This document shows, piece by piece, positions 2,855 to 22,829 of a stretch of 22,829 nucleotides of DNA; within the stretch, counting starts at the first letter, position 1; the number at the start of each line of letters is the position of its first letter. A program made the position numbers and the translations under genes. The stretch lies in contig CAKVKI010000011.1 in NCBI GenBank assembly GCA_934754975.1, positions 1 through 22,829 on the forward strand, in the 5' to 3' direction. The stretch comes from an uncultured Alistipes sp. Lineage in GTDB: Bacteria > Bacteroidota > Bacteroidia > Bacteroidales > Rikenellaceae. Under the pieces are notes generated by a model that made no database searches, was not told where the DNA came from, and saw only the letters and a list, made by a program, of their open reading frames with translations.

Positions 2855-2880
2855 TCCGAACACTCATACTTTTTTGCGGA

Positions 2881-5712
2881 ATGAACCTCGCTTTGCGGCA
2901 TATCGTCCTCTCGTTTCCGGTCCGGCTCGTCGGACTGCTGTCCGTGTGCCTGGGGGCGCTGCCCGTTTTCGCAGCGGCAGAAACTCAGGTGCGGTCCGGC
3001 GGGGAACTGCATAATTCGGTTTACCGTATTCAGGTCCGCAATATCGACGCCCGGGATTATCAGGGCGACGTGCAGGTGTGGGACCTGGTTTCCGACTCCG
3101 ACGGGCATGTCTATGCCGCTACGGGGGGCGGGCTGAGCGTCTGGGACGGTATTCGCTGGAGCGTCTATCCGACAGCGGGACTCCCCATTTTCAGGTGTCT
3201 GGCCTATGACCCGCAGACGGGGCGCATCTATGCCGGGGCGGACAACGAATTCGGTTTTTTCGTCAGGGACGCTTACGGCGGATACGAATATACGCGCCTG
3301 CATCAGAATCCCCGGAGCGAGGTCCCCGAAATCTTCTGGCGCATCATCCTGCACGACGGAGCGGGTTATTTCCAGACGCACGAACAGATTTACCGCTATG
3401 ACCGGCAATCCGGGCGGATCGCTCCTGTACTGACGGAAGGGGCGGTCGGCTATATCCACGCCGTCGGGGACGGGATTTGGTTCCAAGACGGTTCCGGGTT
3501 ATGCGAACTGCGGCCCGACGACACGGTCGTGAAGACAGGGATTGCCTTGTCTGATAGAGTTATCGCCGTGTATCCGCAGAACGGCGAATATATCCTGATT
3601 ACCGAACGCAGCGGCATTTTCGCATGGGACCAAGGTGCGCTGCGCCCGGTGGACGGGCAGCTCAATGCGCTGCTGGCCCGGGTGCGGCTGTTTGCTGCGA
3701 GCCGTACGGCCGACGGCCGCTACCTGCTTGGTAGCGTGATCGACGGCTTGTATATCGTCGATGACCAATGGCGCGTCAGCCGCCGTTTCGGAACTCAGGA
3801 AGGGTTGCTGCATACGACCGTGCTTTCCGTCGAGGAGACTGCGGCCGGGGATATCTGGCTGGGACTCGACGGCGGGATGGCCCGGATCGAAGCGTCCGGG
3901 GCCGGAGCGGTCGTGACGAGCCGTTCGCAGGAGATCGGAAGCGTTTACGACGTCGCTGAGTATGAAGGGGAGCTTTACGCCGGGACCAATAAGGGACTGT
4001 TCCGTTACAGAGGCGACGGCGTTTTCCGTCTGGTCGAAGGGACTCAGGGACAGGTGTGGCGGCTGATACGGGCCGATGACGCGCTGGTCGTATGCCACGA
4101 TGCGGGGACGTTCACGCTTTGGAGGGGCGCACTGCACCGCAGCGACGATTGCAGCGTCTGGCAGCTCCTGCCGTGGGGCGAACGTAAAAACCGCTGGATC
4201 GGGGCGGACTTCAGGGGCGGATTCTCGATTTATGAAATACACGACGGGCGGCTCTATCCCCGGAAAAAGGTCGAAGGCTACGGCGGTGTCCATTCCGACA
4301 TGGGGATCGACCGTTTCGGAAGTATCTGGGTGCAGAACAGGGCGGGAGATCCCGTGCGGATACGGCTCGATGCCGACGACCGGGCGGCCGACGTGCGGAT
4401 TTACGCCCCGGGCGGGCGGCAGGAACCGCTGTACCGGACTCAGCTCGACAACGATGTCTTCTTTTTCCGGGGGCACGAGGTATTGGGATATGATATAAAC
4501 TGCGATTCGCTGGTGCGCAGCGATTACTATACTTCGATGCTCGGCGTGGTCCGTGAAGCGCCGACGGCGCTGACGCAGTCGGGCGACCGTATTTTCGGCA
4601 TTTATGCCGACGGAGTGGGGGTGGTCGGCCGGCAGGGAAACCGTTTTTTCGACTACGGGAGGCTCAACATGCCGGAGGGCCTGAATATGATTCCCTCGCG
4701 GGCGCGGCGGGTCATTCCCATCGACAGCCATACGATTGCGATCGGCCTGCAGAACGGCGTCTTTTTCTTCGATACGCGCATGCAGGACGAAGAGTATCGC
4801 CGGCCGCGCGCACCGCAGCTCGAAAGGTTGCTGCTGCACCTCCGGGATACTTCCGAATTCCTGACGGTGCGTCCCCTGAACGAGGTCTATGCCGTGCCGC
4901 AGAACTATGTTGCGATCGAGGTGCGCCTGTCGAACCTCTATACGCACGGACAGGTCCGTTATTCGGTCGATGGCGGACCGTGGACGACGGCGCCGGGCGT
5001 GCCCGCTTTCCGGCTCAACGACCTGCAGAGCGGAAAACATACGCTCCGCATCCGCAACCTCGATCCCGTGAATTCGTCGCAGGAACCGCTCGAACTCGTT
5101 TTCGACGTCGCCTATCCGTGGTATTTGCAGCTGCGTTTCATCGGCTGCATGCTGCTCGCTGCCGTGGGTATCGGCCTGATTGTCCGCTACCTTTTCAAAC
5201 GCGGCGTGGAACGGCAGCGGCGTGCGCTGCTGCGGGAACAGGAGCGGCTGTTCGAGCAGGAGAAGAAGGAACACGACATCGAACTGCTGCGGGTGGAGCT
5301 GCGTGAACGCGAGCGGAAACTTATAAACCTGACCATGATGGGTATCCAGCGCAATACGATGCTGGGTGAACTGCGCCGCGAAGTGGAGCTGTTTCCCGAT
5401 CAGGAGCAGCGCAGGCGCGTGCTGCGCAGGATCGACTCCTATATGAACGACAAGGAGAACCACGAACTCTTCGAAAAATACTTCAACACCATCCACGACG
5501 GATTCTTCACCCGTCTGTTACAGCATCATCCGGGGCTTACTTCGAACGAAATGCGAATCTGCGCCTATATCAAGCTCAACCTGAGTACGAAGGAGATCGC
5601 GGCTTACATGAATATCTCGCCGAGCAGCGTCGAGATCGCCCGCCACCGCCTGCGCAGGAAGATGAATCTGGCTTCGGAGGTGAATCTTCAGCACTACGTT
5701 TCCGCCATCTGA
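2881..5712 (+). CDS. Membrane-anchored propeller / Y_Y_Y / LuxR-HTH transcriptional regulator of the PUL
   Basis: This 943-residue one-component regulator starts at the ATG at 2881, just after a good promoter and with a signal sequence (residues about 1-33, ending FAAAE). Residues about 45-650 form two-component-regulator propeller repeats, with recurring segments such as VWDLVSDSDGHVYAAT, GDIWLGLDGGMARI and LYAGTNKGLFRY. A Y_Y_Y domain follows (about 670-745, with VRYSVDGGPW). One transmembrane helix lies at about 750-773, then a charged coiled coil (about 775-830). The C-terminal LuxR-type helix-turn-helix is at about 883-930, with LTSNEMRICAYIKLNLSTKEIA and SSVEIARHRLRRKMNL. Histidine-kinase and receiver domains of classic HTCS regulators are absent. 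Known architecture implies periplasmic ligand sensing and direct DNA binding at the membrane. Its place before susC makes that operon the likely target. Confidence 0.9.
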   Translation: MNLALRHIVLSFPVRLVGLLSVCLGALPVFAAAETQVRSGGELHNSVYRIQVRNIDARDYQGDVQVWDLVSDSDGHVYAATGGGLSVWDGIRWSVYPTAGLPIFRCLAYDPQTGRIYAGADNEFGFFVRDAYGGYEYTRLHQNPRSEVPEIFWRIILHDGAGYFQTHEQIYRYDRQSGRIAPVLTEGAVGYIHAVGDGIWFQDGSGLCELRPDDTVVKTGIALSDRVIAVYPQNGEYILITERSGIFAWDQGALRPVDGQLNALLARVRLFAASRTADGRYLLGSVIDGLYIVDDQWRVSRRFGTQEGLLHTTVLSVEETAAGDIWLGLDGGMARIEASGAGAVVTSRSQEIGSVYDVAEYEGELYAGTNKGLFRYRGDGVFRLVEGTQGQVWRLIRADDALVVCHDAGTFTLWRGALHRSDDCSVWQLLPWGERKNRWIGADFRGGFSIYEIHDGRLYPRKKVEGYGGVHSDMGIDRFGSIWVQNRAGDPVRIRLDADDRAADVRIYAPGGRQEPLYRTQLDNDVFFFRGHEVLGYDINCDSLVRSDYYTSMLGVVREAPTALTQSGDRIFGIYADGVGVVGRQGNRFFDYGRLNMPEGLNMIPSRARRVIPIDSHTIAIGLQNGVFFFDTRMQDEEYRRPRAPQLERLLLHLRDTSEFLTVRPLNEVYAVPQNYVAIEVRLSNLYTHGQVRYSVDGGPWTTAPGVPAFRLNDLQSGKHTLRIRNLDPVNSSQEPLELVFDVAYPWYLQLRFIGCMLLAAVGIGLIVRYLFKRGVERQRRALLREQERLFEQEKKEHDIELLRVELRERERKLINLTMMGIQRNTMLGELRREVELFPDQEQRRRVLRRIDSYMNDKENHELFEKYFNTIHDGFFTRLLQHHPGLTSNEMRICAYIKLNLSTKEIAAYMNISPSSVEIARHRLRRKMNLASEVNLQHYVSAI

Positions 5713-5912: not shown

Positions 5913-5973
5913 ATTTCGGACCGGTGGACCTAAACCGGACTAAACCTTAACTTAAACTACTAAAACATTGCTT

Positions 5974-8900
5974 ATGAAAGGTCTCAACCCCAAGAGCAAG
6001 CCGACGAAAGCGGGCCGTCTGATATGCCGGCTTCTGGCGGCGTTTATTTTCGTAATGAACACTGCCGGCGCTTATGCGCAACAGCAGGTCAGTGGAACCG
6101 TAAGGAATGCGGCCGGAGAACCCGTGGTCGGCGCATCGGTCGTAGTCGAAGGTACGGCCGTCGGCACGACGACCAATACTTCGGGAGCATTTACGCTCAG
6201 CGTGCCCGCCGGCGGCGCGCTTAACTTCTCATTTATAGGTATGACGCCCCAGCGCGTCGAGGTGGGCAACCGCACGCAGCTCGAAGTGGTCATGGAGGAC
6301 GACGCGATTTCGATGAGCGCCGTCGTGGTGACGGCCCTCGGCATCAAGCGCGACGAGAAAGCGCTCGGATATGCCGTGCAGAGGGTGGCTGCCGACGAAC
6401 TGCAGACGGTCAAGGGCGTCGATGTGGCCACTTCGCTGTCGGGCAAGGTTTCGGGCCTGATGGTGAAAAACCCGTCGGATTTTGCGGAAGCCCCGACGCT
6501 GACGCTGCGCGGGGAGACTCCGCTGCTGGTGATCGACGGCGTTCCCTATTATAACATGACCATGCGTGATATTCCGGCCGACGACATCGAGTCGATCTCG
6601 GTGCTGAAAGGCGCTACTGCTTCGGCCCTCTATGGTTCGCGCGGCGGTACGGGCGCTGTAATGGTGACCACCAAACGCGGATTGAGCGCCAAAGGTTTTT
6701 CGGTGGACATCAACTCTTCGACGATGTTCCATGCCGGTTTTCTGGCTATTCCCGAGAAACAGAATATGTACGGCCGCGGTACGACGGGCGTTTACGCCTG
6801 GAACGGCGACCGCCAATGGGGACAGCTGATGGACGGTTCGGTCGAGATCGAGCAGTGGAATCCCCGCACCAAGCAGATGGAGATGCGTCCCTACTCGGCC
6901 GTGGGCAAGGACAACTTCCGCAACTTCCTGGAGTCGGGCTATATCCTCAACAACAGCGTCAGCGCCACGCAGCAGGGCGAGATGGGAAGCTTCCGCGCTT
7001 CGGCGTCGTGGATGGACACCAAGGGCGTTTACCCGAACCAGAAGTTCGACAAGTATACGTTCAGCATCGGCGGCGACATGAAATACAAGAATTTTTCGCT
7101 TTCGGCCAATGTGGCCTATAACCGCCACCATACGCCCAATGCGGGCCAGAACGGATACACGAACTATGACCCGATGTACTCGCTGCTGATCTGGAGCGGC
7201 GCAGACTGGGATATCCGCGACTACCGCGATTACTGGATCACGCCGGGCGAAGTGACCAACAATCCCTATACGCGCATACAGGCCGACGGAACCATTCAGC
7301 AGGCCGGTTCGCTCGACAACCCCTATTTCATCCAGTACGAGCGTATCCGCGAAGAGACGCGCGACGTGATGAACGGCAATATCAACATGAGCTACGACAT
7401 TATGCCCTGGCTCAAACTGACCGTGCGTTCGGGTCTCGATTTCTATGTCGATAAAACCGAGATGCGCATCGCCAAGGGCAGTTTCACCAATTCGGGCAAT
7501 ACCTACGGATCGGTCGTCGGCGCCAAGCTGGGGTATTTCCGCACGCAGCGCGACACGGGATTCAGTACGAACAACGACTTCCTGCTGACGGGCGACTACA
7601 CGTTCGGCGATTTCCGCGTGGACGGGCTTTTCGGCGGCGGCATCTTCTACCGCCGTTCCGAATCGCTGATGGGCTATACGGCCGGCGGCCTGAACCTGCC
7701 CGACTTCTATTCGCTCAACAACGCCGTAGACGGTGCGAAGGCCACTTCGTCACTCAGGGAACAGCAGGTGAACAGCCTTTACGGACGGCTGTCGCTCTCG
7801 TGGCGCGACATGCTCTACGTCGAGGCGACGTTGCGCAACGACTGGAGTTCGACGCAGGCTTCGACGCCTTACAAATCCTATATCTATCCTTCGGTGTCGG
7901 GAAGTTTCGTGGTTTCGGAACTGCTGCCCAAGACCGACTGGCTGTCGATCTGGAAACTGCGCGGTTCGTGGACCATTTCGAAGCGTCCGGCCGACATCTA
8001 CGCCACCAACACCAGTTATAAGGTGACGGCCGACACCTGGAACGGCATGTCGGGCGCGGCGCAGAATACGACGGGCTACAACATCGCCATTCTGCCTTCG
8101 GCGTTCGAGACCTTCGAGGTCGGTACGATGGCTTCGTTCTTCGGCAACCGCCTTTCGCTGGACGTGTCCTACTACCAGAAGCGCAATTACGACACGCAGA
8201 AGAGCGTGGCCGTGTCACACGCTTCGGGTTACTACAACAACCTCGTGAACACCAAGGAGGAGATTACCAACAAGGGGTGGGAGATCACGCTCGGCGCCAC
8301 GCCCGTAAAGACCCGCGACTGGCGCTGGGACGTGACGTTCAACTGGTCGCGCTACCGCCGCCACTACACGCAGATCGACCCCGAATATTCGACCGACCGT
8401 CCGTGGGTAGCCAAGGGCAAGCGCGCCGACCATATCGTACTCAACACCTTCCAGCGTCACGAAGAGACCGGGGAGATGATCCACGACGCCAACGGCCTGC
8501 CGCTCTACAATACTTATCAGTCGGTTTACGGCTATTCCGATCCCGACTGGATCTGGGGCGCGACCACCACGCTGCGCTGGAAGAACCTGTCGATGTCGCT
8601 GTCGTTCGACGGTCGTGTGGGCGGCATGACGCAGAGCTACACGGAGACTTACCTCTGGATCGCCGGAAGCCACCCCAAATCGACCACCGAAGCGCGTTAC
8701 CTCGACGTGACGAATCCCGGCACGAAGAACCACCTGAGCCAGGGCCAGCGCGTGGTGAGCGGCTCGGCGACGTGGGACGCGCAGGGAAACAAGCTGACCG
8801 ATACGCGCGTATTCGCTCCCAACGACGTGAAGACCACCTATAAGGATTATGTGGGCCGCGTCCACAAGAACAACGTCTGGGGCGGTGTGGCGTCGCCGCT

Positions 8901-9132
8901 GGACATGTTCCGCACGACGTTCCTTAAACTGCGCGAGGTTTCGCTCACCTACGACGTGCCGGCCAGATATTGCCGCATGATCCGCAGCAAGGGCATCGCG
9001 GTGTCATTCGTCGGACAGAATGTCTTCATGTCGGCCAAGGATTTCAAGTATTCCGATCCCGACGGCGGTACGGAGAACCTCTCCGACCCTTCGGCGCGCT
9101 ACCTCGGTTTCAATGTCAAACTTTCGTTCTAA
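5974..9132 (+). CDS. SusC/RagA-type TonB-dependent outer-membrane transporter
   Basis: The product is 1052 residues, a normal SusC length. The ATG at 5974 gives a clean signal peptide (about residues 1-31, cut after AYA before QQQVSG). A carboxypeptidase-D-like regulatory domain follows (about 33-105, VSGTVRNAAGEPVVGASV), then the TonB-box region VVVTALGIKRDEKALGYAV and the plug (about 110-235, with LLVIDGVPYY, ESISVLKGATASALYG, GAVMVTTKRG). The 22-strand barrel ends in LGFNVKLSF, a typical outer-membrane C-terminus ending in Phe. No STN domain is seen, so signalling through an anti-sigma factor is unlikely. It forms a lid-and-barrel importer with the SusD protein encoded 15 bp downstream. 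The enzymes downstream suggest beta-glucan oligosaccharides as substrate. Confidence 0.97.
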   Translation: MKGLNPKSKPTKAGRLICRLLAAFIFVMNTAGAYAQQQVSGTVRNAAGEPVVGASVVVEGTAVGTTTNTSGAFTLSVPAGGALNFSFIGMTPQRVEVGNRTQLEVVMEDDAISMSAVVVTALGIKRDEKALGYAVQRVAADELQTVKGVDVATSLSGKVSGLMVKNPSDFAEAPTLTLRGETPLLVIDGVPYYNMTMRDIPADDIESISVLKGATASALYGSRGGTGAVMVTTKRGLSAKGFSVDINSSTMFHAGFLAIPEKQNMYGRGTTGVYAWNGDRQWGQLMDGSVEIEQWNPRTKQMEMRPYSAVGKDNFRNFLESGYILNNSVSATQQGEMGSFRASASWMDTKGVYPNQKFDKYTFSIGGDMKYKNFSLSANVAYNRHHTPNAGQNGYTNYDPMYSLLIWSGADWDIRDYRDYWITPGEVTNNPYTRIQADGTIQQAGSLDNPYFIQYERIREETRDVMNGNINMSYDIMPWLKLTVRSGLDFYVDKTEMRIAKGSFTNSGNTYGSVVGAKLGYFRTQRDTGFSTNNDFLLTGDYTFGDFRVDGLFGGGIFYRRSESLMGYTAGGLNLPDFYSLNNAVDGAKATSSLREQQVNSLYGRLSLSWRDMLYVEATLRNDWSSTQASTPYKSYIYPSVSGSFVVSELLPKTDWLSIWKLRGSWTISKRPADIYATNTSYKVTADTWNGMSGAAQNTTGYNIAILPSAFETFEVGTMASFFGNRLSLDVSYYQKRNYDTQKSVAVSHASGYYNNLVNTKEEITNKGWEITLGATPVKTRDWRWDVTFNWSRYRRHYTQIDPEYSTDRPWVAKGKRADHIVLNTFQRHEETGEMIHDANGLPLYNTYQSVYGYSDPDWIWGATTTLRWKNLSMSLSFDGRVGGMTQSYTETYLWIAGSHPKSTTEARYLDVTNPGTKNHLSQGQRVVSGSATWDAQGNKLTDTRVFAPNDVKTTYKDYVGRVHKNNVWGGVASPLDMFRTTFLKLREVSLTYDVPARYCRMIRSKGIAVSFVGQNVFMSAKDFKYSDPDGGTENLSDPSARYLGFNVKLSF

Positions 9133-9147
9133 ATCAAGGCTAAACCT

Positions 9148-10683
9148 ATGAAAAGCATATTCAAATATATCGTTCCCTGCGTCGTGTCCCTGCTGGCGGC
9201 CGGTGGCTGCAGCAACTTCGAGGATATGAACACCAATCCCGATACGACCACCAAGGTGAGTCCCGCGCTGCTCTGCACGTCGGCGCTCACGACCATGGCG
9301 AAATTCAGCGGCGACGCCAAAGCCTATCTGGCGACGGCGGCCCTGCCCAAATACATCGCCTATGCCCAGGAGGGGCAGATGGCCGAGCAGTACAACAATA
9401 TCGGCCGCGGCAGTTTCAGTCTCTATGCTGTTTTTCCGAACCTCGACGACATGGTGTCGTTCGCTTCCAAGAGCAGCGCTTACGAAACTTCGTCGTACCG
9501 CGGCGTGGAGTATTTCGTCAAGGCCCACATCCTCTACAAACTGACGATGGAAATGGGCGACGTGCCCTGTTCTCAGGCGGGACAGGGAATGTCGGAAGGC
9601 ATTATGAAGGCAGTGTACGATCCGCAGGAGCAGGTTTTTGCCACGGTGCTTTCCTACCTGCAGACGGCGGCCGACAATTTCGCGCAGAGTTCGGGCACAT
9701 TCACGGGCGACATCTTCTTCGGCGGAGACCCTGCCAAATGGCTCAGGGCGACCAACGCCCTGCGGCTGAAGGTACTCATGTCGCTTTCGGAGAAGGCCGA
9801 CGTCGCGTCGCTCAACGTCAAGGGGGCTTTTGCCGAAATCGTACGCGACGGCCGCCTGATGCAGAGCAACGCCGATAACCTCGCCCTGACCTATGTCGAC
9901 AAGGCCAACAGCTATCATCCGCTCTATTCGACCAGCGACAAATTCGTGGTCAATACGATGATGAGCGCAACGGTAGTCGACAAACTCAAGGCGCTGAACG
10001 ATTACCGGCTCTTCTATTATGCCGCACCCTACGAGAATGCGGCGGGGGAAGGACATACGCCGGATGAGATGGATGCCTACCGGGGCGTGGACGTGACGAT
10101 CGACTTCACGGCGATCAACACTGCCTACAACAGCCGTGACTATTCGCTGCTCAACAAGCGCTACGTACAGCAGAAGGACAGCGAACCGCTGGTGCTGGTG
10201 GGCTATGCCGAGCAGTGTTTCCTGATCGCCGAGGCGATCGAGCGCGGCTGGGTGAGCGGCACTTCGCAGACGTATTACGAAAACGGCGTCAAGGCGGCCC
10301 TTTCGTTCGTGATGGGATTGAACGCCGCGACTGTCGGCAAAGCGATCACGCAGGACTATATCGACTCCTACTTTACGGGCGAAGCGGCCTATAAGTCCGC
10401 TTCCGCCGAGCGGCTGCGCCAGATATGGGACCAGAAATACCTGATGACGTTCATGCAGGACTGCGACAACGCCTACTTCGAGTACCGCCGCACGGGGTGG
10501 CCCCAGCTGCCGATCAATCCCGCGACAAGTCTCAATGTAAACGCTCCCGGCAAACTGCCGGTGCGCTGGATGTACCCTTCGAACGAGGAGACGACCAACA
10601 GCAGCAACCTGCTGGAAGCGCTGAACCGTCAGTTCGGCAACGAAGCGGATGAAATCAACGGCCTGATGTGGCTGCTCAAATAA
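9148..10683 (+). CDS. SusD/RagB-family surface glycan-binding lipoprotein
   Basis: This 511-residue lipoprotein has signal MKSIFKYIVPCVVSLLAAGG with lipidated Cys21. The N-terminal CSNFEDMNTNPDTTTKVSPALL is characteristic of the SusD-like_2 branch. TPR-like helices follow (for example YFVKAHILYKLTMEMGDVPCSQA). Later family segments include RLRQIWDQKYLMTFMQDCDNAYFEYRRTGWPQLP and RWMYPSNEE. The mature protein caps the SusC barrel and binds the incoming glycan at the cell surface. The gene follows susC by 15 bp. No SusE/F-like surface binding lipoprotein gene follows, which is unusual for a glucan PUL. A hairpin separates it from the enzyme genes. Confidence 0.96.
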   Translation: MKSIFKYIVPCVVSLLAAGGCSNFEDMNTNPDTTTKVSPALLCTSALTTMAKFSGDAKAYLATAALPKYIAYAQEGQMAEQYNNIGRGSFSLYAVFPNLDDMVSFASKSSAYETSSYRGVEYFVKAHILYKLTMEMGDVPCSQAGQGMSEGIMKAVYDPQEQVFATVLSYLQTAADNFAQSSGTFTGDIFFGGDPAKWLRATNALRLKVLMSLSEKADVASLNVKGAFAEIVRDGRLMQSNADNLALTYVDKANSYHPLYSTSDKFVVNTMMSATVVDKLKALNDYRLFYYAAPYENAAGEGHTPDEMDAYRGVDVTIDFTAINTAYNSRDYSLLNKRYVQQKDSEPLVLVGYAEQCFLIAEAIERGWVSGTSQTYYENGVKAALSFVMGLNAATVGKAITQDYIDSYFTGEAAYKSASAERLRQIWDQKYLMTFMQDCDNAYFEYRRTGWPQLPINPATSLNVNAPGKLPVRWMYPSNEETTNSSNLLEALNRQFGNEADEINGLMWLLK

Positions 10684-10697
10684 AGGAACGGATCGAT

Positions 10698-10737
10698 CGG
10701 GGAGGGACGGCCCGCACGGCGTAGCGGTCTCTCCCCG
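10698..10737 (+). promoter_or_regulatory. Strong intercistronic hairpin between susD and the GH16 gene
   Basis: CGGGGAGGGAC (10698-10708) pairs over 11 bp, with one wobble, to GTCTCTCCCCG (10727-10737) around an 18-nt loop. There is no T run afterwards. It could protect the susCD message or partly reduce downstream expression, but a complete stop is unlikely. Confidence 0.55.
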
Positions 10738-10753
10738 GTTCGGGATATATGGT

Positions 10754-11587
10754 ATGAAAAAGGTATTTTTGTTTTTAGTCTCGGTTTTCGTCGCCGTCAC
10801 TGCCGGAGCGGGAACTCCGGCGGCGCGGATATCTACTCCCTCTGGCTGCGATTGGCGGCTGGTCTGGAACGATGAGTTCGATTACAGGGGCCTGCCCGAT
10901 CCCGCTAAGTGGGGGTACGATACCAGCCGCAACGGCGAGGGGTGGGGCAACAACGAACTGCAGTGTTACACGGCGGCGCGCCGCCGCAACGCCCGCGTAC
11001 GGAACGGAGCGCTGACGATCACGGCCCGCCGGGAGCCGCGCGGCGGCAAGAAATACACTTCGGCACGGCTGGTTACGCGCGGGCGTCAGGCGTGGTGTTA
11101 CGGCCGGGTGGAGGCGCGGGTGCGCTTTCCCGAGGGCCGCGGTACATGGAGCGCCGTGTGGCTGATGCCCGAGGAGAGCCGTTACGGCGTCTGGCCCGCC
11201 AGCGGCGAGATCGACCTGGTCGAGCAGGTGGGGTATGATTCCGACTGCATCGTAGGGACGGTACACACCACCCGCCATTCGCATCTGGACGGAACCCAGA
11301 AGAACGGCTCCGTGAGATCGCCCGGCGTGACGCGCGAATTTCACCTCTATGCGATCGAGTGGGAGCCGGAACAGATCCGCTTCTATTTCGACGACCGGCT
11401 CTATTTCGTGTATGAGAACGACGGCGCAGGCTCTGCCGGATGGCCCTTCGACCAGCCCTTCTACCTGATTCTCAACCTTGCCGTCGGCGGCAACTGGGGC
11501 GGACAGCAGGGGATAGACGACCGGGCGTTCCCGCAGCGGATGGAGGTCGATTACGTGCGCGTTTACGAAAAAATACAAAACAAATGA
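10754..11587 (+). CDS. GH16 family endo-beta-glucanase (laminarinase-like)
   Basis: The product has 277 residues: a Sec signal peptide (about 1-20) and one GH16 domain. The active site is GEIDLVEQVG: Glu152 as nucleophile, Asp154 as helper and Glu157 as acid/base. Other family segments are LVWNDEFDYRGLPDPAKWGY, WGNNELQCYT, GRVEARVRFPEGRGTWSAVWLMP, FHLYAIEWEPEQIRFYFDD and LILNLAVGGNWGG. These fit the bacterial beta-1,3- or beta-1,3/1,4-glucanase branch (GH16_3 type) rather than agarase or carrageenase branches. There is no lipobox, so a periplasmic location is more likely than the cell surface. It lies 70 bp after susD across the hairpin and 7 bp before the GH3 gene. Exact linkage preference cannot be read from sequence alone. 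Confidence 0.93.
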   Translation: MKKVFLFLVSVFVAVTAGAGTPAARISTPSGCDWRLVWNDEFDYRGLPDPAKWGYDTSRNGEGWGNNELQCYTAARRRNARVRNGALTITARREPRGGKKYTSARLVTRGRQAWCYGRVEARVRFPEGRGTWSAVWLMPEESRYGVWPASGEIDLVEQVGYDSDCIVGTVHTTRHSHLDGTQKNGSVRSPGVTREFHLYAIEWEPEQIRFYFDDRLYFVYENDGAGSAGWPFDQPFYLILNLAVGGNWGGQQGIDDRAFPQRMEVDYVRVYEKIQNK

Positions 11588-11594
11588 TCCGAAT

Positions 11595-13955
11595 ATGCGA
11601 ATGATGAAGATGAAACAGGCGGCGCTGCTGGCGTTGGGCCTGCTGCTGTCGGTGACGGCGGCGTCCGCCGCCGGCGGCAGCGACGAAGTGCAGGTGGAAC
11701 GCCGTATCCGCAAAATCATGGAGGGGATGACCCTCGAACAAAAAGTGGGGCAGATGACCCAGCTGACGCTCGACGTCTTGGGCCGGGGCGAGCATATCGC
11801 ACATAGTTATATGCCGTTCGAATTTGACGAAACGATGCTCGACTCGGTGATCCATCACTACAAGGTGGGGTCGATCCTCAATACGGCGTCCAATACGCCG
11901 CTGGAGGTCGGAACCTGGTCGCGCATCGTGCGCCGGCTGCAGGAGGAAGCGCTGGCCGACGGCGGGATTCCGATCATCTACGGCGTGGACCAGATTCACG
12001 GCGTGACCTATACCGTGGGCGGGACGCTTTTCCCGCAGCAGATCGGCATGGCGGCGACGTGGAATCCGCAGCTGGTGGCCGAAGGCGCCCGGATATGCGC
12101 CTATGAAAGCATGGCGGGGAATGTGCCGTGGAATTTTTCGCCGATCCTCGACCTGGGGCGCGATCCCCGGTGGCCGCGCATGTGGGAGACCTACGGCGAG
12201 GATTCGCACCTCGTATCGGTGATGGGCGTCGCCGCCGTACGCGGTTATCAGGGAGCGGACCGCTCGCGGGTGGACGGCCGCCATGTGGCCGCCTGCCTGA
12301 AACATTACCTCGGTTACGGCGTGCCCTATTCGGGCCGCGACCGCACGCCGGCCCTGATTCCCGACAACGAACTGCGGGAGCGTCACTTCCAGCCGTTCGT
12401 CGATGCCGTCCGCGCGGGAGCGCTCTCGGTAATGGCCAATTCGGGGCTTATCAACGGCGTTCCCGTGCATGCGTCGCACCGCCTGTTGACGGAATGGCTC
12501 AAGGAAGGACTGGACTGGGACGGCGTGATCGTGACCGACTGGAACGACATCAACAACCTCTGGTCGCGCGACCGTCTCTGTACGACGCCCAAGGAGGCGG
12601 TGAAGATCGCTATTAACGCCGGCATCGATATGTCGATGGTGCCGTACGACGTGAAATTCTGCACCTATCTCAAGGAGCTGGCCGAAGAGGGCGAAGTGCC
12701 GATGAGCCGTATCGACGACGCCGTGAGCCGCATCCTGCGCCTGAAAATCCGGCTCGGACTTTTCGAGCGGCCGTATGCCGCGGTGGAGGATTATCCGGAA
12801 TTCGCCGGCGAAGCGTTCGCCCGCTGCGCCCGCGCCGCGGCCGAAGAGTCGATAACCCTGCTGAAAAACGAGGGCGGGCTGCTGCCCCTGCCGTCCGGTG
12901 CGAAGATATTGGTGACGGGGCCCGGCGCCAACTCGATGCGTGCGCTCAACGGCGGCTGGACCCTTTCGTGGCAGGGCGAGAAGGCCGATCTTTACGGCGA
13001 AGCATACCGGACGATATTGGAAGCCCTGACCGCCCGTGCAGGTGCAGGCAGGGTGGTTTATGCGCCCGGCGTTACCTATGAGGAGGGGAATCCGCCGACG
13101 ACCGCGATTCCCTATTATGCCGAGAACGAACCGCAGATCGAAGCGGCCGTGCGGGCGGCCGCCGGGGTCGATTGCGTCGTTCTCTGCCTGGGCGAAAATT
13201 CGTACTGCGAAACACCGGGCAATCTCGAAGACCTGACGCTTTCGGCCAATCAGCTGAAGCTGGCCGGAGCGATGGCGGCGACCGGAAAGCCGGTCGTCCT
13301 CGTACTGGCTGAGGGCCGTCCCCGGATCATCAGCTCGATCGAGCCGCAGATGCGCGCCGTCGTGCAGGCCTACCTGCCCGGAAATTACGGCGGGGAGGCA
13401 CTGGCCGCCGTTCTTTACGGCGATGTGAATCCCTCGGGCCGCCTGCCCTATACCTATCCGAAATATGTCAATGCACTGACGACCTACGATCACAAGCCCT
13501 GCGAAACGATGGATGTGATGGAGGGCGCTTACAATTACGAGGCGGCGGTGTCGGTGCAGTGGCCGTTCGGTTACGGATTGGGTTATACGACCTTTGCATA
13601 CGATAACCTACAGGTCGGGAAGTCCGTTTTCCGTGCGGGCGACGAACTTGTTTTCACGGTCGATGTGACCAATACCGGCAAACGCGCCGGCAAGGAGACC
13701 GTGATGCTGTTTTCGAGCGACCTGGCGGCAAGCATCAGCCCCGACGTCCGCCGCCTGCGCGCTTTCGGGAAGGTCGAACTGCAGCCCGGCGAGACCCGGC
13801 GTGTGAAACTTGCCGTTCCGGCCGACGATCTTGCGTTTGTGGGCGCCGACGGCCGCTGGCGTCTCGAAAAGGGCGATTTCGACATACAGGCCGGCAGCAG
13901 GGTGGTGCGCATAACGTGTTCTGAGACAAAAGTGTGGGATACGCCGAACAGGTAG
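11595..13955 (+). CDS. GH3 family beta-glucosidase
   Basis: The 786-residue protein has a signal peptide (about 1-25, ending ASA). The (beta/alpha)8 domain contains KVGQMTQLTLD, IYGVDQIHGV, NFSPILDLGRDPRWPRMWETYGED and CLKHYLGYG. The nucleophile is Asp315 in GVIVTDWND. The second domain carries GENSYCETPGNLEDLTLS, where Glu539 aligns by motif with the acid/base Glu of barley ExoI-type GH3 enzymes. A fibronectin-III-like domain ends the protein (about 670-780, GDELVFTVDVTNTGKRAGKE). It probably removes terminal glucose from beta-1,3 or mixed oligosaccharides in the periplasm, completing the work of GH16. The 7-bp gap to the GH16 gene indicates one transcript. The start at 11595 is followed by nearby in-frame ATGs that cannot be excluded. 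Confidence 0.95.
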   Translation: MRMMKMKQAALLALGLLLSVTAASAAGGSDEVQVERRIRKIMEGMTLEQKVGQMTQLTLDVLGRGEHIAHSYMPFEFDETMLDSVIHHYKVGSILNTASNTPLEVGTWSRIVRRLQEEALADGGIPIIYGVDQIHGVTYTVGGTLFPQQIGMAATWNPQLVAEGARICAYESMAGNVPWNFSPILDLGRDPRWPRMWETYGEDSHLVSVMGVAAVRGYQGADRSRVDGRHVAACLKHYLGYGVPYSGRDRTPALIPDNELRERHFQPFVDAVRAGALSVMANSGLINGVPVHASHRLLTEWLKEGLDWDGVIVTDWNDINNLWSRDRLCTTPKEAVKIAINAGIDMSMVPYDVKFCTYLKELAEEGEVPMSRIDDAVSRILRLKIRLGLFERPYAAVEDYPEFAGEAFARCARAAAEESITLLKNEGGLLPLPSGAKILVTGPGANSMRALNGGWTLSWQGEKADLYGEAYRTILEALTARAGAGRVVYAPGVTYEEGNPPTTAIPYYAENEPQIEAAVRAAAGVDCVVLCLGENSYCETPGNLEDLTLSANQLKLAGAMAATGKPVVLVLAEGRPRIISSIEPQMRAVVQAYLPGNYGGEALAAVLYGDVNPSGRLPYTYPKYVNALTTYDHKPCETMDVMEGAYNYEAAVSVQWPFGYGLGYTTFAYDNLQVGKSVFRAGDELVFTVDVTNTGKRAGKETVMLFSSDLAASISPDVRRLRAFGKVELQPGETRRVKLAVPADDLAFVGADGRWRLEKGDFDIQAGSRVVRITCSETKVWDTPNR

Positions 13956-16095: not shown

Positions 16096-18225
16096 ATGAA
16101 AAATCATTTACCTCTTCTGTTATTCGGCACGCTGGCACTGGTGGTGGCAACGATGGCATCTTGCGGGAAAGATACGACCGAGCCTGCGGTCGAACCTCCG
16201 GTCGATCCCGATAAGTATTCGATTACCGTAACCGCCGGTACGGGCGGCATTGCCGAAGCGACGGCCGACGATACGGCTGTGACCGAGGCTGTGGAAGGCG
16301 CGCAGATCACCCTCACCGCCATTCCCGGCGATGGCTATACGTTCAGCCGCTGGATAGTCGAGAGCGGCGGCGCGGAGCTTTCGGATGAGACGGCCAACCC
16401 CGCGGCATTTGCCATGCCGGCGGAAAACGTATCCGTCAAGGCGGAGTTTGCCGAAGTAATGTTGAATATATACGATAAAATTACCGACCCTCAATTTCAG
16501 TACTATTGCCGCGACATCGGGAAATTCGACACGAACAACGACGGGGTGCTGTCGCTAGAAGAAGCCCGTGCGGTGACGGAAATCAATGTGAATGAGTTGG
16601 ATAAGCTGTTGGGCAAGCCGGTTGGGTCGCTGGCCGGAATAGAGTATTTTACATCGCTCACCTACCTGACCTGTTACGGCAACGCCATTGCCGAGATCGA
16701 CGTGTCGAAGAATACCGAACTTACCTACCTGCACGTGGCTACCAACCGGCTGACAAAACTCGACGTGTCGAAAAACACCAAACTCGTAAACCTGTATTTC
16801 AGCTGGAACGCGATTCCTGAGATCGATCTGTCCAAATGTCCCGATCTTGAGATATTGCAGTACAATGGCTGCAGCGAACTGGTCTCGCTCGATGTATCGG
16901 GGAATACGAAGCTTACCGGCGTCATGGGGGAAAGCTGTCCTAAAATCACCTCGCTCGACTTCTCGAACAATCCGGCGCTGGTGAGTCTGGATTGCGCCGC
17001 ATGCGGACTGACCTCGCTCAATGTATCGGGCTGTCCGGCGCTGAAAACGCTGCACAGTTTGGAGAACCGGCTGACTTCGCTCGACGTATCGAAAAACACC
17101 GCGTTGGAAATTTTCACCTGCGATCATAATCGGCTGACGTCGCTCGACGTGTCGAAAAATACGTCGCTGAAATATTTTATGTGCTGGAATAACCGGATGA
17201 AGACGCTGGATGCTTCGTCCATGAGCGACCCGAATGATTTCGATCTCGGCTGCGGCGTGCAGACCACCGACGGCACTACGCCGCAAACCCTGACGCTCAC
17301 CCTGCGCGAGGATCAGAAACAGCGCTGGGAGCTGTATATGGTACCCTTCGACGACATGAATGCAAATGTAACGCTCGCAGGCGGTAGCGCAGATGTTTTC
17401 GTGTCTCTGACCGACCCTGTGTTCAAAGCGTACTGCGAACGGTTCGACACCGACCGGGACGGCAAACTCTCACTGGAGGAAGCCGCGGCGGTGACAGATC
17501 TGACAGTGCCCGATATGGGTATCGCTTCCTTAGCCGGATTGGAGTATTTTCCGGGGATCAAAAAGCTGGTATGCAATAACAATAAGCTGGTTTCGCTCAA
17601 TGTCGCATATAATCCGGCACTGGTCGATCTGGTATGCAATGACAATCAACTGACCGAACTCATTTTGACCAAAGGATTGTCGGGCGGCGATGTACTCGCC
17701 AGTGTCTACTGCCAGAACAACCAACTGACCAAACTCAGCGTAGGCGGCTGCCGGCAGCTTCAGACACTCAACTGCCAAAACAACCAATTGACCGAAATCA
17801 ATCTGTGGCATGCTTCGGCGCTGGGCAAGATCAATTGTGCGAACAATAAGCTGACCGGACTCGATTTCTACTACACCAATGCACTGGTCTCGCTCATGTG
17901 TCAGAACAACGAGCTGAAAACGCTCGATCTGTCGAATAAGAGGGCGCTTATGAGCGTGATGTGCAATAACAATCCCATGACCTCGCTCACTATATCCGGC
18001 TGTACTTCGCTGGTGGGGCTGATGGCCTACGAAAACCGGCTGACGGAGCTGAACGCTTCGGATATGGACAGTCCCGCCGGCTTTAATATCTTCTGCGGCA
18101 ATCAGACATCCGACGGCTCTGCGCCCCAAACCCTGAGGCTCACCCTGCGCGAAGAACAGAAGCCGCATTGGGAGAACGATATGAAAAGCTCTTCATTGAA
18201 CAACAATGTCGTGCTGGCCGATTGA
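16096..18225 (+). CDS. Leucine-rich-repeat lipoprotein with two EF-hand modules
   Basis: This 709-residue predicted lipoprotein has a lipobox ending MASC, with Cys23 lipidated and a Pro-rich linker after it. Residues about 41-118 form a bacterial-repeat domain (YSITVTAGTGG ... GDGYTFSRWIVESGG ... MPAENVSVKAEF). Two similar modules follow. Each starts with TDP.F..YC and an EF-hand-like calcium loop (DTNNDGVLSLEE at 145-156; DTDRDGKLSLEE at 451-462). Each continues with SLAG.EYF and about 21-residue leucine-rich repeats (LTSLDVSKNTALEIFTCDHN type), and ends with a TPQTLTLTLRE- or APQTLRLTLRE-like segment. The fold suggests a surface or periplasmic binding or adhesion protein. No catalytic motif is visible and the ligand is unknown. 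It follows the TPR/AraC regulator and ends at a strong terminator, so it is probably transcribed alone. Confidence 0.9.
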   Translation: MKNHLPLLLFGTLALVVATMASCGKDTTEPAVEPPVDPDKYSITVTAGTGGIAEATADDTAVTEAVEGAQITLTAIPGDGYTFSRWIVESGGAELSDETANPAAFAMPAENVSVKAEFAEVMLNIYDKITDPQFQYYCRDIGKFDTNNDGVLSLEEARAVTEINVNELDKLLGKPVGSLAGIEYFTSLTYLTCYGNAIAEIDVSKNTELTYLHVATNRLTKLDVSKNTKLVNLYFSWNAIPEIDLSKCPDLEILQYNGCSELVSLDVSGNTKLTGVMGESCPKITSLDFSNNPALVSLDCAACGLTSLNVSGCPALKTLHSLENRLTSLDVSKNTALEIFTCDHNRLTSLDVSKNTSLKYFMCWNNRMKTLDASSMSDPNDFDLGCGVQTTDGTTPQTLTLTLREDQKQRWELYMVPFDDMNANVTLAGGSADVFVSLTDPVFKAYCERFDTDRDGKLSLEEAAAVTDLTVPDMGIASLAGLEYFPGIKKLVCNNNKLVSLNVAYNPALVDLVCNDNQLTELILTKGLSGGDVLASVYCQNNQLTKLSVGGCRQLQTLNCQNNQLTEINLWHASALGKINCANNKLTGLDFYYTNALVSLMCQNNELKTLDLSNKRALMSVMCNNNPMTSLTISGCTSLVGLMAYENRLTELNASDMDSPAGFNIFCGNQTSDGSAPQTLRLTLREEQKPHWENDMKSSSLNNNVVLAD

Positions 18226-19193: not shown

Positions 19194-20465
19194 ATGAACA
19201 AGTGTATTATGGCCTCGATTAAACCCGTTCTGAACTATCGTCCGAACAAGGATGGACGCTACACGCTTATTTTACAGATTCTCCACAACCGCCGGCGGGG
19301 CGTCGTCTTTTCGCCTTAATATCTGCTGTCTGGAGAGTTCGACTCCAAAAAAGGAATGGCTGTCGCTGTAAACCGCACGAAAGCCGCCCGGACCCGTGCC
19401 GGCGAGATCAACGACTACATCCGTATGCAAACTGCGGAGTTGCATCGCACGATCCGGGAAATGGAGCTGTCGGGCGACCCTTTCACCCCGAAGGAGATCG
19501 CTGCGGCCTACCGGCGTCGCGGCGACCGGCGCTATGTGCGGACTTTCGTACTCTCGCTCTGCGAGGAACTGGAGAGGCGCGGCAAGCACAGCACATCGGG
19601 CACCTATCGGTCGCTGCTCTCGGCTTTCGAACGTTTCGCGGGCAGCCGGGATACGTACCTGCACGAACTGACTCCGGCGCGTCTGGCGGGATTCGAGGAA
19701 TACCTCAAGGCCGTCCCCCTGCAGCGCAATACGATTACTTTTTATATGCGCATCCTGCGGGCCGTTTACAATAAGGCGCGGCGCGTGGGGCTGGTTGCAA
19801 AGGGCGAGAACCCTTTCGAAGAGGTGTCGTTCCGCATCGACAAGACCCGCAAGCGGGCCGTCGGCGTGGATACGCTGCGGCGTGTCGCCGAGGCGGACTT
19901 CGGGACACGCACCTGGCTTACGCTGGCCCGCGATCTGCTGTTGTTCAGCTTCCACGCGCGCGGCATGTCGTTCGTGGATATGGCCTACCTGAAACGGGAA
20001 GACGTCCAGGATGGTGTCCTGCGTTACACGCGCCGTAAGACCGGGCAGATCTTTTCGGTGCGCGTGACGAATGCCCTGCAGGAGCTGATCGACCGTTATG
20101 CGGCGTGTGCGCCGTGGATGCTTCCCGTAATGAAAGGATGCGCCGTGGGGCGTGAGAACGGGATCGCGCTTCCCGACCTGGAGCCGGATGCGCCCCCGCA
20201 AGTATTGTATAAGCGCTATCGGGAGGCACTTACGAATTACTGGTATTACCTCGGAATCATCTCCGACGAACTGGATACCGGGAAACGACTGTCGTTCAAT
20301 GTCGCCCGCCATACGTGGGCGTCCGTAGCCCGCAACCGGGGTATTCCGCTGGCGGTTATCAGCCAGGGCCTCGGGCACACCTCCGAAAAAACGACCACGA
20401 TCTATCTCGATGACCTGAACGCCCGTGAGGTGGACGATGCCAACGACATCGTGACGCGGTATTAA
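19194..20465 (+). pseudogene. Bacteroidetes-type tyrosine recombinase with an in-frame stop at codon 42
   Basis: The frame from the ATG at 19194 would encode 423 residues, normal for this family. It begins MNKCIMASIKPVLNYRPNKD and continues through a beta-rich arm-binding domain (GRYTLILQILHNRRRGVVFSP). A TAA at 19317-19319 then interrupts it without changing frame, and YLLSGEFDSKKG follows directly, as family proteins normally continue. The remainder is complete: a SAM-like core-binding domain (about 110-210) and a catalytic domain with Arg256 (HARGMSF), Lys282 (RRKTG), Arg372 (NVARHTW; Asn where many members have His or Tyr), His395 (LGH) and nucleophile Tyr404 (TIYLDDL). Translation could restart at the ATG at 19356 (369 residues). 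It may be inactive, or make a truncated recombinase lacking the arm domain. It lies 1.3 kb from the inverted repeats at 21763/22216, its most likely substrate. Confidence 0.85.
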
Positions 20466-20483: not shown

Positions 20484-21554
20484 TTACGACACGGCGGGCT
20501 GTTCGTCAGAAATACCCCCCCCCTCCTCCTCGACCAGCTTCAGCAGGGCTTCATAGAGGTTGTCGTGCTTTTCGAGTCCGAGCTTGCTGCGGATCGTCCC
20601 GCGGATGGTGGTGATTGCCGAGGCGTTTTTCCTGAGCTTGCGTGCGATACCGGTGACGGTCATTCCCCGCAGGATCAGCAGGCATACCTCCTTTTCATAA
20701 GGTGTCAAACCCAATTCTCCGGCATCGAGCGCCGTGAGGTTTTGCTTTTTTCGTTCGACCACGTCGGCGGCCGCCTCCAGCACGGAGGCCTTCGTCTGTT
20801 CGTCGAGCAGGTCGAGGAGCCTGCTTTTCTGACTCTCGGAAAGATGTTTGCGGCGGGTCAACTTGATCAGCCGGAACAACTCCTCCTTATCGATATTGAG
20901 GTATTCGAAAATCCGGTCCTGCTCCCGGACCAGATTATCTTTGCTGTGCTGCAACGACGCCACGCCGCGTACCAACCGGTCTCCCATAAAGGCAAGTACG
21001 ATGAACGCAAGCGCCAGCACCGGAATCACATGCCCTATATGGGGACTCTGTGTGGCATATCCGCAGATAATCAGCGTCACGATCGTGATGAGGGTCTGTA
21101 TGTAAGGCAAGTAACGGATATAGGCCGTAATGGAGAGGATCAGCGCCATGCCCAGCAGGATCGTGTTGCTCATGATTCCCGGTACGCCCATGATGATTCC
21201 CGGCTCCGACGAGGTCATGTGGATCATTTCGATCGCGGTTTCGATCTGGATGGAGAGTATTAGCAGCAGGACAGCCCGGTAGACGGAAATTTTCCGCCGG
21301 ACATACAGTGCGATGAGCAGCAGGATGAGCAGGGCATGGATCGAGTTGATGGTGTCGAAGAAACGACTTTGGGGCCCGAACGAGGTCGCGATATTCAGGA
21401 CGATGCCGAGCAGGTAACCCAGCGAGGCATAGAAAAAAACGAATGCGCGCTGGCGTCCAATGAGGTCGTCGGCATTGTCAGGAACGCGAAAAACCTGTCT
21501 GAAAGCAGATACTACGCCGGTTGGGCGCAATTTTTTTTTGTATTTTTTCTTCAC
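20484..21554 (-). CDS. Six-helix membrane protein with C-terminal LuxR-type HTH (regulator)
   Basis: This 356-residue frame starts at a GTG (complement of 21552-21554); no upstream or nearby in-frame ATG exists. Residues about 38-210 hold six hydrophobic helices (for example FVFFYASLGYLLGIVLNIA, IHALLILLLIALYV and VIPVLALAFIVLAFM). A charged helical linker follows (about 215-285), then a LuxR-type helix-turn-helix (about 288-345, LTPYEKEVCLLILRGMTVTGIARKL and SAITTIRGTIRSKLGL). It is probably a membrane-tethered transcription factor. It is divergent from the OmpA-like gene and convergent with the recombinase gene (18-bp gap), so it probably controls the surface operon. Homopolymers are striking: A9 at 21531-21539 (codons 6-8) and G9 at 20515-20523 near the C-terminus. 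Confidence 0.85.
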   Translation of the reverse strand: MKKKYKKKLRPTGVVSAFRQVFRVPDNADDLIGRQRAFVFFYASLGYLLGIVLNIATSFGPQSRFFDTINSIHALLILLLIALYVRRKISVYRAVLLLILSIQIETAIEMIHMTSSEPGIIMGVPGIMSNTILLGMALILSITAYIRYLPYIQTLITIVTLIICGYATQSPHIGHVIPVLALAFIVLAFMGDRLVRGVASLQHSKDNLVREQDRIFEYLNIDKEELFRLIKLTRRKHLSESQKSRLLDLLDEQTKASVLEAAADVVERKKQNLTALDAGELGLTPYEKEVCLLILRGMTVTGIARKLRKNASAITTIRGTIRSKLGLEKHDNLYEALLKLVEEEGGGISDEQPAVS

Positions 21555-21709
21555 CTGTTCAACTTATTTTGGTTCAGTATTTTGTATTGCATCGACATGA
21601 CAAGACATGATATGTTTTCATTCTGTTTTCGGACATCCGGAAGGAAGAAATGTGCCGAAAAATGAGACGTGGTAATAAAAAAGACATATCTTTGCATTGT
21701 AAAATTTCC

Positions 21710-21740
21710 CAAATATACGCTCCTTCCCGGATATTGCAAA
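21710..21740 (-). promoter_or_regulatory. Promoter of the membrane LuxR regulator
   Basis: On the minus strand TTTG (21737-21740), a 19-bp spacer and TATATTTG (21710-21717) match the Bacteroidetes consensus perfectly. It lies 22 bp outside the left inverted repeat, so inversion changes only what is upstream of it. The leader to the GTG at 21554 would be about 150 nt. Confidence 0.8.
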
Positions 21741-21762: not shown

Positions 21763-21785
21763 TCAGTTCTTTTTGGAAAAGAATT
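21763..21785 (+). repeat. Left inverted repeat of the invertible segment
   Basis: TCAGTTCTTTTTGGAAAAGA followed by ATT matches the complement of 22194-22216 at 22 of 23 positions, including an uninterrupted 19 bp (21767-21785). The copy is itself a near-palindrome (TTCTTTT...AAAAGAA) with an asymmetric TGG centre, like the paired half-sites of a tyrosine recombinase crossover site. Confidence 0.85.
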
Positions 21786-21932
21786 TATCATTGATATTCA
21801 CTCTTTCCCGAAAAAATCAAGATTTTAAATCCGCTCTTCTTTACGTGATACGGAGGTAGTTATTTCGTTGTTTGGCCGGGATTTCTCCCGACGTTCGATT
21901 CTGTTGTTGTTTCTTTATTCTAATGCTTATAT

Positions 21933-21972
21933 GCGGTTCGCTCCCTTTCGGGGTCGAATCGCTTTTCTTTTT
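21933..21972 (+). terminator. Rho-independent terminator inside the invertible segment
   Basis: GCGGTTCG (21933-21940) pairs with CGAATCGC (21955-21962), with one wobble and inner CCC/GGG pairing. The stem is followed directly by TTTTCTTTTT (21963-21972). The opposite strand has no T run, so it acts only in the current plus direction and reverses when the segment flips. Confidence 0.75.
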
Positions 21973-22163
21973 CTGCCTGACAGACAATGTATTCCAATTG
22001 CCATTGGGGTCGGTGTTTTTTACTGTTTCATCATTATGCGCGGAGTGAAAATTGGAATCGGCTTATAGCCAGCCTTTTGAAATCAATGTTTAGCTTCAAA
22101 ATAATGTGAATAAAAAAAATTATCAATAAATCTTACAAGATATATTTTAATCAATTTATAATC

Positions 22164-22193
22164 TGTGAATTACCTTGCAACTATCTATATTTC
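22164..22193 (+). promoter_or_regulatory. Candidate switchable promoter at the right edge of the segment
   Basis: TATATTTC at 22186-22193 differs from TAnnTTTG only in the last base. A weak TGTG lies at 22164-22167 (18-bp spacer). It is the only -7-like element I find close before the OmpA-like gene; none occurs between the right repeat and the ATG. Its orientation is toward that gene in this assembly. Confidence 0.4.
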
Positions 22194-22216
22194 AATTCTT
22201 TTCCAAAAAGAATTGA
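22194..22216 (-). repeat. Right inverted repeat of the invertible segment
   Basis: AATTCTTTTCCAAAAAGAA (22194-22212) is the exact complement of 21767-21785, and the match continues to 22216 with one mismatch. Like the left copy it has internal dyad symmetry. It lies 73 bp before the ATG of the OmpA-like gene. Confidence 0.85.
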
Positions 22217-22289: not shown

Positions 22290-22829
22290 ATGAAGAACAA
22301 GATAATTATTGCGACAATCGCACTCCTGCTTTTATCGGGGACGTTTTCGGCAGCCTGGGGCCAGCAGTCCGGGTCCGGGACGGAAAGTGCGCATCAAGTC
22401 GATGCGGCGGTCTATTTCCGCATCGGGGAGAGTACTGTCGACCCGGATTTCGAAGGCAACCGGATTCGTCTGATCGTCTTTCTGAACGATCTGCGGCACA
22501 TCCAGGCCGATTCGAACTACGTGATCTCCCGCATCGAGGTCGCAGGCACGGCCTCGCCGGACGGGGCTCGTGAGCGTAACGAACAGCTGGCCGGGGAGCG
22601 GGCCGAAGCGCTGGCTTCATGGCTTGTTTCTGAGGCCGGAATTCCTTTTGAGAAAATCTCCGTGGTGAACGGCGGTGAGAATTGGACGGGGCTTCGCGCG
22701 ATGATCGAAGTCTCGGAGATGCCGCGCAAGGGCGATATGCTGCGGCTGATGGATCGTTATTCGGATGACCGGGCTGCGCGCAAGCGTGCCATGCAGTATT
22801 ATGCCGACAGCGAGCCGTGGCTGTGGATG
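22290..22829 (+). CDS. OmpA-like/DUF3575-type protein opening a probable fimbrial operon (3' end outside window)
   Basis: An open frame from the ATG at 22290 runs 180 codons to the edge. A signal peptide (about 1-24, MKNKIIIATIALLLLSGTFS, cut near WGQ) precedes an OmpA-like segment: AAVYFRIGESTVDPDFEGN, ISRIEVAGTASPDGARERNE and LAGERAEALASWLVSEAGIP. It continues with NGGENWTGLRAMIEVSEMP and RKRAMQYYADSEPWLWM. From memory, this string of motifs is typical of the first gene of Bacteroidales fimbria (FimB/Mfa2/fimbrillin) operons, where DUF3575 and DUF3868 proteins are encoded early. The exact DUF is uncertain because the C-terminus is missing. A small hairpin (GAGGTG/CACCTC, 22259-22286) precedes the ATG and might limit translation. 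Expression is probably set by the invertible segment upstream. Confidence 0.8.
   Translation, partial: MKNKIIIATIALLLLSGTFSAAWGQQSGSGTESAHQVDAAVYFRIGESTVDPDFEGNRIRLIVFLNDLRHIQADSNYVISRIEVAGTASPDGARERNEQLAGERAEALASWLVSEAGIPFEKISVVNGGENWTGLRAMIEVSEMPRKGDMLRLMDRYSDDRAARKRAMQYYADSEPWLWM

Follow-up and report, generated by a model that had tools for sequence, protein, structure and literature searches.

Judged from its sequence, the window analysed here, a 22,829-nt stretch of DNA from an uncultured Alistipes sp., very likely carries a site-specific DNA inversion switch, that is, a phase-variation element, upstream of a probable fimbrial operon. Tyrosine recombinases of the family encoded nearby exchange strands at the spacer of their sites. 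In the mechanism we propose, such an enzyme would bind two dyad sites, TTCTTT-N5-AAAGAA, and exchange strands across their identical 5-nt spacers. The 446-bp segment between a divergent LuxR gene and an OmpA-like gene would then be inverted, and its orientation would decide whether transcription reaches the operon. Whether the moving part would be a terminator or a promoter is close to a toss-up.

Inverted repeats and the genes that flank them

The proposed segment is bounded by two 23-nt arms, one at 21763–21785 (plus strand) and the other at 22194–22216 (minus strand). As the initial annotation had it, the arms are complementary at 22 of 23 positions (96%), with 19 bp perfect and 408 nt between them. 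The left arm contains a 17-nt core, TTCTTT-TTGGA-AAAGAA, at 21767–21783, which is the proposed recombination site; the right arm repeats this core in inverted register (22212–22196). Two exact copies of the 19-mer, inverted relative to each other, are present, and shuffles of the window gave a mean of 0.01 matches with up to three mismatches. The LuxR and OmpA-like genes are 735 bp apart, and the longest perfect inverted repeat in this intergenic region measures 19 bp, a length reached by none of 1000 dinucleotide shuffles (maximum 16); the segment is thus bounded by inverted repeats beyond chance. For the longest inverted repeat over the whole 22.8 kb, 19 bp was reached in 1 of 100 shuffles. 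This is less extreme, and the intergenic position of the arms therefore matters. The exact 19-mer also has two matches in viral_contigs, in or beside phage-like coding DNA and with no partner arm reported, which we took as chance.

To the left of the segment, on the minus strand, lies a gene for a membrane LuxR-type regulator (20484–21554; 356 aa). Its product has hydrophobic stretches at about residues 37–199 and a weak GerE (HTH) match at 283–329, under the curated cut-off, which bears out the divergent membrane regulator described earlier. In the protein collection, 22 LuxR homologues were found at E 0.001 or better. For seven of them, the longest contig has the same size as that of a listed recombinase match (304473, 210642, 81806, 11504, 9127, 3144 and 3134). 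On the two contigs of ~3.1 kb (3144 and 3134), the LuxR and recombinase genes would take up most of the sequence and would thus be neighbors. Contig sizes of this kind make the LuxR–recombinase pair look like a conserved module. Word-pattern scans of genome_contigs and viral_contigs with the LuxR protein and its 23-row alignment found no relatives, and the protein had no match in the phage collection. No flipped copy of the locus was thus seen in these collections, which weighs against inversion.

The OmpA-like gene begins 73 nt past the right arm and runs off the end of the window (22290–22829, plus strand; 180 aa in the window). This piece corresponds to the N-terminal half of the first-gene product, a DUF3575 protein, of a fimbrial locus on pMMCAT plasmids (28% identity), and none of 279 candidates from the protein collection matched it at E 0.001. 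At the pMMCAT locus, a LuxR-type gene (28% identical to that of the window) diverges from the DUF3575 gene, which is followed by DUF5119 and then fimbrillin (Mfa_like_1). Hence, two marks of a type V pilus (fimbrillin) locus are seen in the window: a first gene related to DUF3575 (~28%, N-terminal part only) and a divergent LuxR-type gene. Two other loci, L012 and L020, have the following order: a gene for a recombinase homologue, a segment bounded by repeats, a ~190-aa gene and a DUF3868/OmpA gene (28–29% identical to the window piece). From the homology of one partial gene and the divergent regulator, we regard the OmpA-like gene as the probable first gene of a fimbrial operon. The fimbria-type gene of the initial annotation thus gains support from homology, for the 180 aa that the window covers.

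Comparison with pMMCAT also yields a point against inversion, in that its 306-bp LuxR/DUF3575 intergenic region contains no inverted repeat of the window type. On these plasmids, the homologous recombinase gene lies ~10 kb from the fimbrial locus, next to a capsule (UpxY) locus. A further point against inversion comes from the arms themselves. Each is a near-palindrome (the right one consists of two 12-nt arms around 3 nt), so that only three central bases distinguish the inverted register from the direct one: the former gives 27 of 41 matches, the latter 24 of 41. Such arms might instead be a palindromic operator present twice, ~430 bp apart, at which a regulator such as the LuxR protein binds or loops the DNA, with no inversion. 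Any two copies of a near-perfect dyad resemble an inverted repeat, and the nearly equal match in direct register is in keeping with this idea. However, agreement at the three central bases is confined to the inverted register, for which we estimate a chance of 1 in 64; the homologous pMMCAT intergenic region contains no such pair; and the arms rank first with a matrix built from recombinase-linked sites (below). Together, these observations make an operator pair very unlikely.

The remainder of the window encodes other functions. A polysaccharide-utilisation-like cluster (5968–13955) includes genes for a TonB-dependent receptor, a SusD-like protein, GH16 and GH3, and ahead of it lies the gene for a large regulator that combines a propeller repeat with a LuxR-type HTH (2767–5712). 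A leucine-rich-repeat protein (16096–18225) shows EF-hand-like and divergent InlB B-repeat matches, as well as a weak match, under the cut-off, to the NCBIfam model 'invert_tail'.

The linked recombinase and the design of its sites

A tyrosine recombinase gene on the plus strand, convergent with the LuxR-type gene, ends at 20465, which confirms the reported distance of 1.3 kb to the left arm at 21763. Its frame, which starts at 19194 (or 19209), is cut short by an in-frame TAA at 19317–19319, inside the arm-binding region, leaving a 5' piece at 19194–19319. The remainder (19356–20465; 369 aa) has complete core-binding and catalytic parts (Phage_int_SAM_5 and Phage_integrase). It retains R202, K228, R318, H341 and Y350, the catalytic residues of the tyrosine recombinase family. 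Among the candidates scored from the protein collection, 2792 homologues were found, of which 120 were listed. In that list, the closest relative is 97% identical and 418 aa long, and the nearest named organism is Rikenella microfusus (71%). The recombinase alignment found no relatives in viral_contigs.

The premature stop makes activity of the recombinase in this strain doubtful and counts against inversion. The TAA position is read through in all 20 relatives that were aligned, among at least 120, including the nearest one. From this in-frame stop, the strain's switch may be locked: a former switch whose arms persist while the truncated recombinase is inactive, an explanation compatible with an inversion switch. 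Any loss of switching would be recent, given that 19 bp of the two arms have remained identical. On the other hand, the TAA could stem from a sequencing or assembly error, which would leave the switch active; translation from the ATG at 19356, with the catalytic part complete, could maintain activity; and another recombinase could act in trans. On balance, we consider a locked switch rather unlikely.

Relatives of the recombinase with 33–39% identity, drawn from the plasmid and phage collections, defined 11 loci for comparison (L003, L004, L012 and L014–L021). The 62 matching plasmid records supplied two recombinase loci and, for the comparison of orientation, one partner record; from the phage collection, the nine best of 23 recombinase-matching records were compared, three of them in part. 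At 10 of the 11 loci, inverted repeats with 15–31 perfect bp lie near the recombinase gene and bound segments of 189–319 bp, whereas L017 showed no inverted repeat of at least 14 bp near the recombinase relative. That this family adjoins such segments supports the claim that the window segment is invertible. The comparator arms fit a core, TTCTCT-N5-AGAGAA, at 8–12 of 12 fixed positions. In the window arms this 6-N5-6 layout is kept, and the two half-sites are altered in matching ways. The repeat sequence had not been recognised at first; it is not entirely novel, since it represents a half-site variant, TTCTTT in place of TTCTCT, of the 6-N5-6 site that occurs beside recombinase relatives.

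A weight matrix was built from 28 comparator arms (14 segments), with the window excluded. Core positions and strand were chosen by best match to a by-eye consensus, with a bonus of half a point where the spacer ended in A, and hence we make no claim about that spacer base. Repeats without a 6-N5-6 core or without a recombinase nearby were left out (those of L007, L009 and L010, and one each of L016 and L018). Four loci (L009, L010, L011 and L013) have an OmpA match and no recombinase match; L005, L006 and L007 were used for LuxR context only; and L008, with other recombinases (~30%), was counted in the 15-segment promoter tally described below, outside the 11 loci and the matrix.

Scanned over both strands of the 22.8 kb, the matrix ranks the two window arms first, with scores of 12.15 and 11.98; the next unrelated site scores 9.88. 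Random sequence matched to the intergenic region in size and composition would yield 0.06 scores as high as those of the arms. These data tie the repeat to the recombinase family and speak against a mere operator pair. The repeat thus resembles the sites beside recombinase relatives, at the low end of their range: the comparator arms score 11.5–24.8, and only 1 of the 28 is lower than the window arms, which counts against inversion. Two differences in layout count against it as well. The window segment is longer than any of the comparators, at 446 bp, and the recombinase gene is separated from the nearest arm by 1.3 kb with the LuxR gene between, against at most ~0.5 kb for the nearest comparator arms.

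For one homologue, inversion can be seen directly. A segment of L004 that adjoins the homologous recombinase gene (1382–1597) is exactly inverted between the pMMCAT records NZ_CP072238 and NZ_CP072253 (reverse-complement identity 1.0), and the neighboring segment and the flanks are unchanged except for one base. Orientation was compared letter by letter for this single pair. Of 20 records matched by the L004 query, 17 align in one piece over at least 99%, one is inverted and two are partial (65% and 14%). The exact inversion shows that the homologue's segment has inverted in nature.

Several comparator records have features of their own. In L004 (1382–1967), L016 (5396–5984), L018 (2446–2964) and L021 (6254–6866), one recombinase gene lies beside two neighboring repeat-bounded segments, and the paired segments have similar half-sites and different spacers. 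It is as if one enzyme served two switches separated by spacer identity. On a Phocaeicola massiliensis plasmid (L008, 7622–16140), recombinase genes of 363 and 309 aa flank a DUF3575/fimbrillin-like cluster. The 25-bp repeat there has the core GTTACT-TTAGA-AGTAAC, again a 6-N5-6 site, with other half-sites. Finally, Bacteroidales-type fimbrial genes, repeat-bounded segments linked to a recombinase, or both, occur in GenBank records named 'Bacteriophage sp.' (unverified, from human faeces); L012 and L020 were assessed by gene content, and L009–L011, L013–L019 and L021 by matches only. Of these, L012 and L020 at least appear to be bacterial DNA.

Hairpin and promoter-like elements of the segment

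The interior of the proposed segment (21786–22193) is gene-free and AT-rich, as previously noted: its 408 nt have 35% G+C, and no ORF of at least 80 aa overlaps it. G+C content is 41% in the first 275 nt and 23% in the last 133 nt. A promoter was said to lie inside. PMC12632263 gives the Bacteroides -7 consensus as TANNTTTGY. In 14 of 15 comparator segments (all except that of L012), a perfect TAnnTTTG occurs with its end 26–36 nt from one segment end, and such an element lies within 20–40 nt of an end in 3% of shuffles. The window segment, searched on both strands, contains no TAnnTTTG. Its best rightward element is TATATTTC (22186–22193, plus strand), which is imperfect (5/6), abuts the right arm and sits 19 nt from the segment end; TGTG/TCTG lies upstream of it. 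One match of this quality was observed, compared with a mean of 2.5 in shuffles. An E. coli-type promoter scan was set aside as ill-suited to a Bacteroidales-type group.

The segment also contains a terminator-like hairpin, at 21933–21962 on the plus strand (-18.3 kcal/mol), followed by UUUUCUUUUU up to 21972. None of 200 interior shuffles gave a hairpin as strong (best -15.2). Hairpin and U-tract are confined to the plus strand, the minus strand reaching -4.0 at best; an intrinsic-terminator hairpin on one strand only is also a mark of a cwpV-type segment. Among the 15 comparator segments, the strongest comparable hairpin is -11.5, and none matches the hairpin plus U-tract of the window. Elsewhere in the mostly GC-rich window, hairpin/T-run places at -12 or below number nine on the plus strand, three of them at -18.3 or stronger, and three on the minus strand. 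The terminator scan missed the hairpin at 21933–21962, probably owing to an internal mismatch; RNA folding showed it. A fold of the whole segment was set aside because the two arms pair by construction, and an Rfam search gave no credible match.

With no TAnnTTTG on either strand and a strong hairpin and U-tract present, the claim of a promoter inside the segment is not supported, and inversion may move a terminator instead. In its present orientation, the hairpin would stop rightward transcription; flipped, it would leave no U-tract on the rightward strand, and transcription would pass. Given inversion, such an orientation-dependent terminator falls somewhat short of an even chance. Tentatively, then, we envisage a Bacteroidales fimbrial operon under an invertible terminator, with its promoter outside the segment, beside the divergently transcribed LuxR gene; a tyrosine recombinase would flip the terminator into and out of the leader. 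A candidate -7 element for the downstream gene, TATCTTTG, is found outside the segment and reads into it (21687–21694, plus strand); its -33 element is poor (2/4), and by our estimate about one such element is expected by chance in an AT-rich region of this size. On the minus strand, also outside the segment, TTTG-N19-TATATTTG (21710–21740) is a good candidate for the LuxR promoter.

A non-consensus promoter may nonetheless lie inside the segment. Given inversion, a promoter in the AT-rich right end, probably LuxR-dependent, has much the same prospects as the terminator. The full form of this alternative, a classic Bacteroidales invertible promoter that points toward the OmpA operon, is off-consensus because LuxR activates it and is ON in the present orientation, is equally tentative. 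Promoters are the rule among the comparators, the AT-rich end of the interior finishes in TATATTTC with its upstream TGTG/TCTG, and a regulator gene adjoins the segment. Moreover, the non-inverting pMMCAT LuxR/DUF3575 region also lacks TAnnTTTG toward DUF3575 (its only copy is on the other strand), which suggests that promoters beside such LuxR genes may depart from the consensus. Against this stand the lack of TAnnTTTG on both strands, the position of the best element at 19 rather than 26–36 nt from the end, and its quality, no better than in shuffles. An internal promoter would also leave the strong hairpin and U-tract without a role, except insulation.

That neither a terminator nor a promoter is moved, given inversion, seems improbable. 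The two modes make opposite predictions: the present orientation is OFF under the terminator model and ON under the right-end promoter model. Whichever applies, this is very likely an inversion element of known kind that departs from all 15 comparators in the strength of its terminator-like hairpin and from 14 of them in the lack of an end-proximal TAnnTTTG. In most descriptions, phase-variable surface structures of Bacteroidales are controlled by promoters that flip. Should the segment move a terminator, scans that read invertons by a promoter within them would assign the ON state wrongly; should it turn out to be a promoter switch and no more, with a poor promoter, it would simply join a very long list of invertons. 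The 6-N5-6 dyad is a recognisable site design that links a recombinase family with its target sites, and the window provides a member changed in both half-sites.

Comparison with known systems

The fimbriae and the sites of the E. coli fimS/FimB–FimE system are unrelated to those of the window, and the fimS promoter lies inside the segment. An invertible-terminator mechanism is known to us solely from the cwpV switch of C. difficile. As in the arrangement proposed here, the DNA inverted by a tyrosine recombinase at fimS lies ahead of a fimbrial operon, according to PMC9993118. For cwpV, which is served by RecV, PMC2784873 puts forward a model with a promoter outside the inverted segment, with orientation deciding whether an intrinsic terminator, proposed for the OFF transcript, forms in the leader. 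By analogy, the window would share the outside promoter and the orientation-dependent intrinsic terminator. It differs in that its hairpin lies wholly inside the segment; in addition, the cwpV repeats enclose 195 bp and recV lies away from cwpV, according to PMC2784873, and the window is known from sequence alone.

In the literature covered, which mostly did not extend to subscription papers and is thus weak evidence of absence, we found no description of such a locus or of a Bacteroidales invertible terminator. PMC11892184 lists, among future work, the question of whether motifs enriched downstream of coding sequences serve as terminators. Both this paper and PMC12632263 describe Bacteroidales/Bacteroidota invertons that lie ahead of capsule (UpxY) and fimbrillin operons and have a tyrosine-type recombinase linked to them.

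Compared with these invertons, as far as those texts go, and with the pMMCAT and Alistipes indistinctus plasmid loci counted among them, the window has the same short 6-N5-6 repeats, a recombinase homologue alongside and a probable surface-structure operon downstream. It is set apart by its TTCTTT/AAAGAA half-sites, the LuxR gene between recombinase and segment, the lack of a consensus promoter inside, the strong terminator-like hairpin, the longer segment and the interrupted recombinase frame. With the non-inverting LuxR–DUF3575–DUF5119–fimbrillin locus of the pMMCAT type, the window shares the divergent LuxR-type gene and the N-terminal half of DUF3575, each at 28% identity. Unlike the window, that locus has a shorter intergenic region with no repeat, and its homologous recombinase serves as neighbor to a capsule locus rather than to the fimbrial genes.
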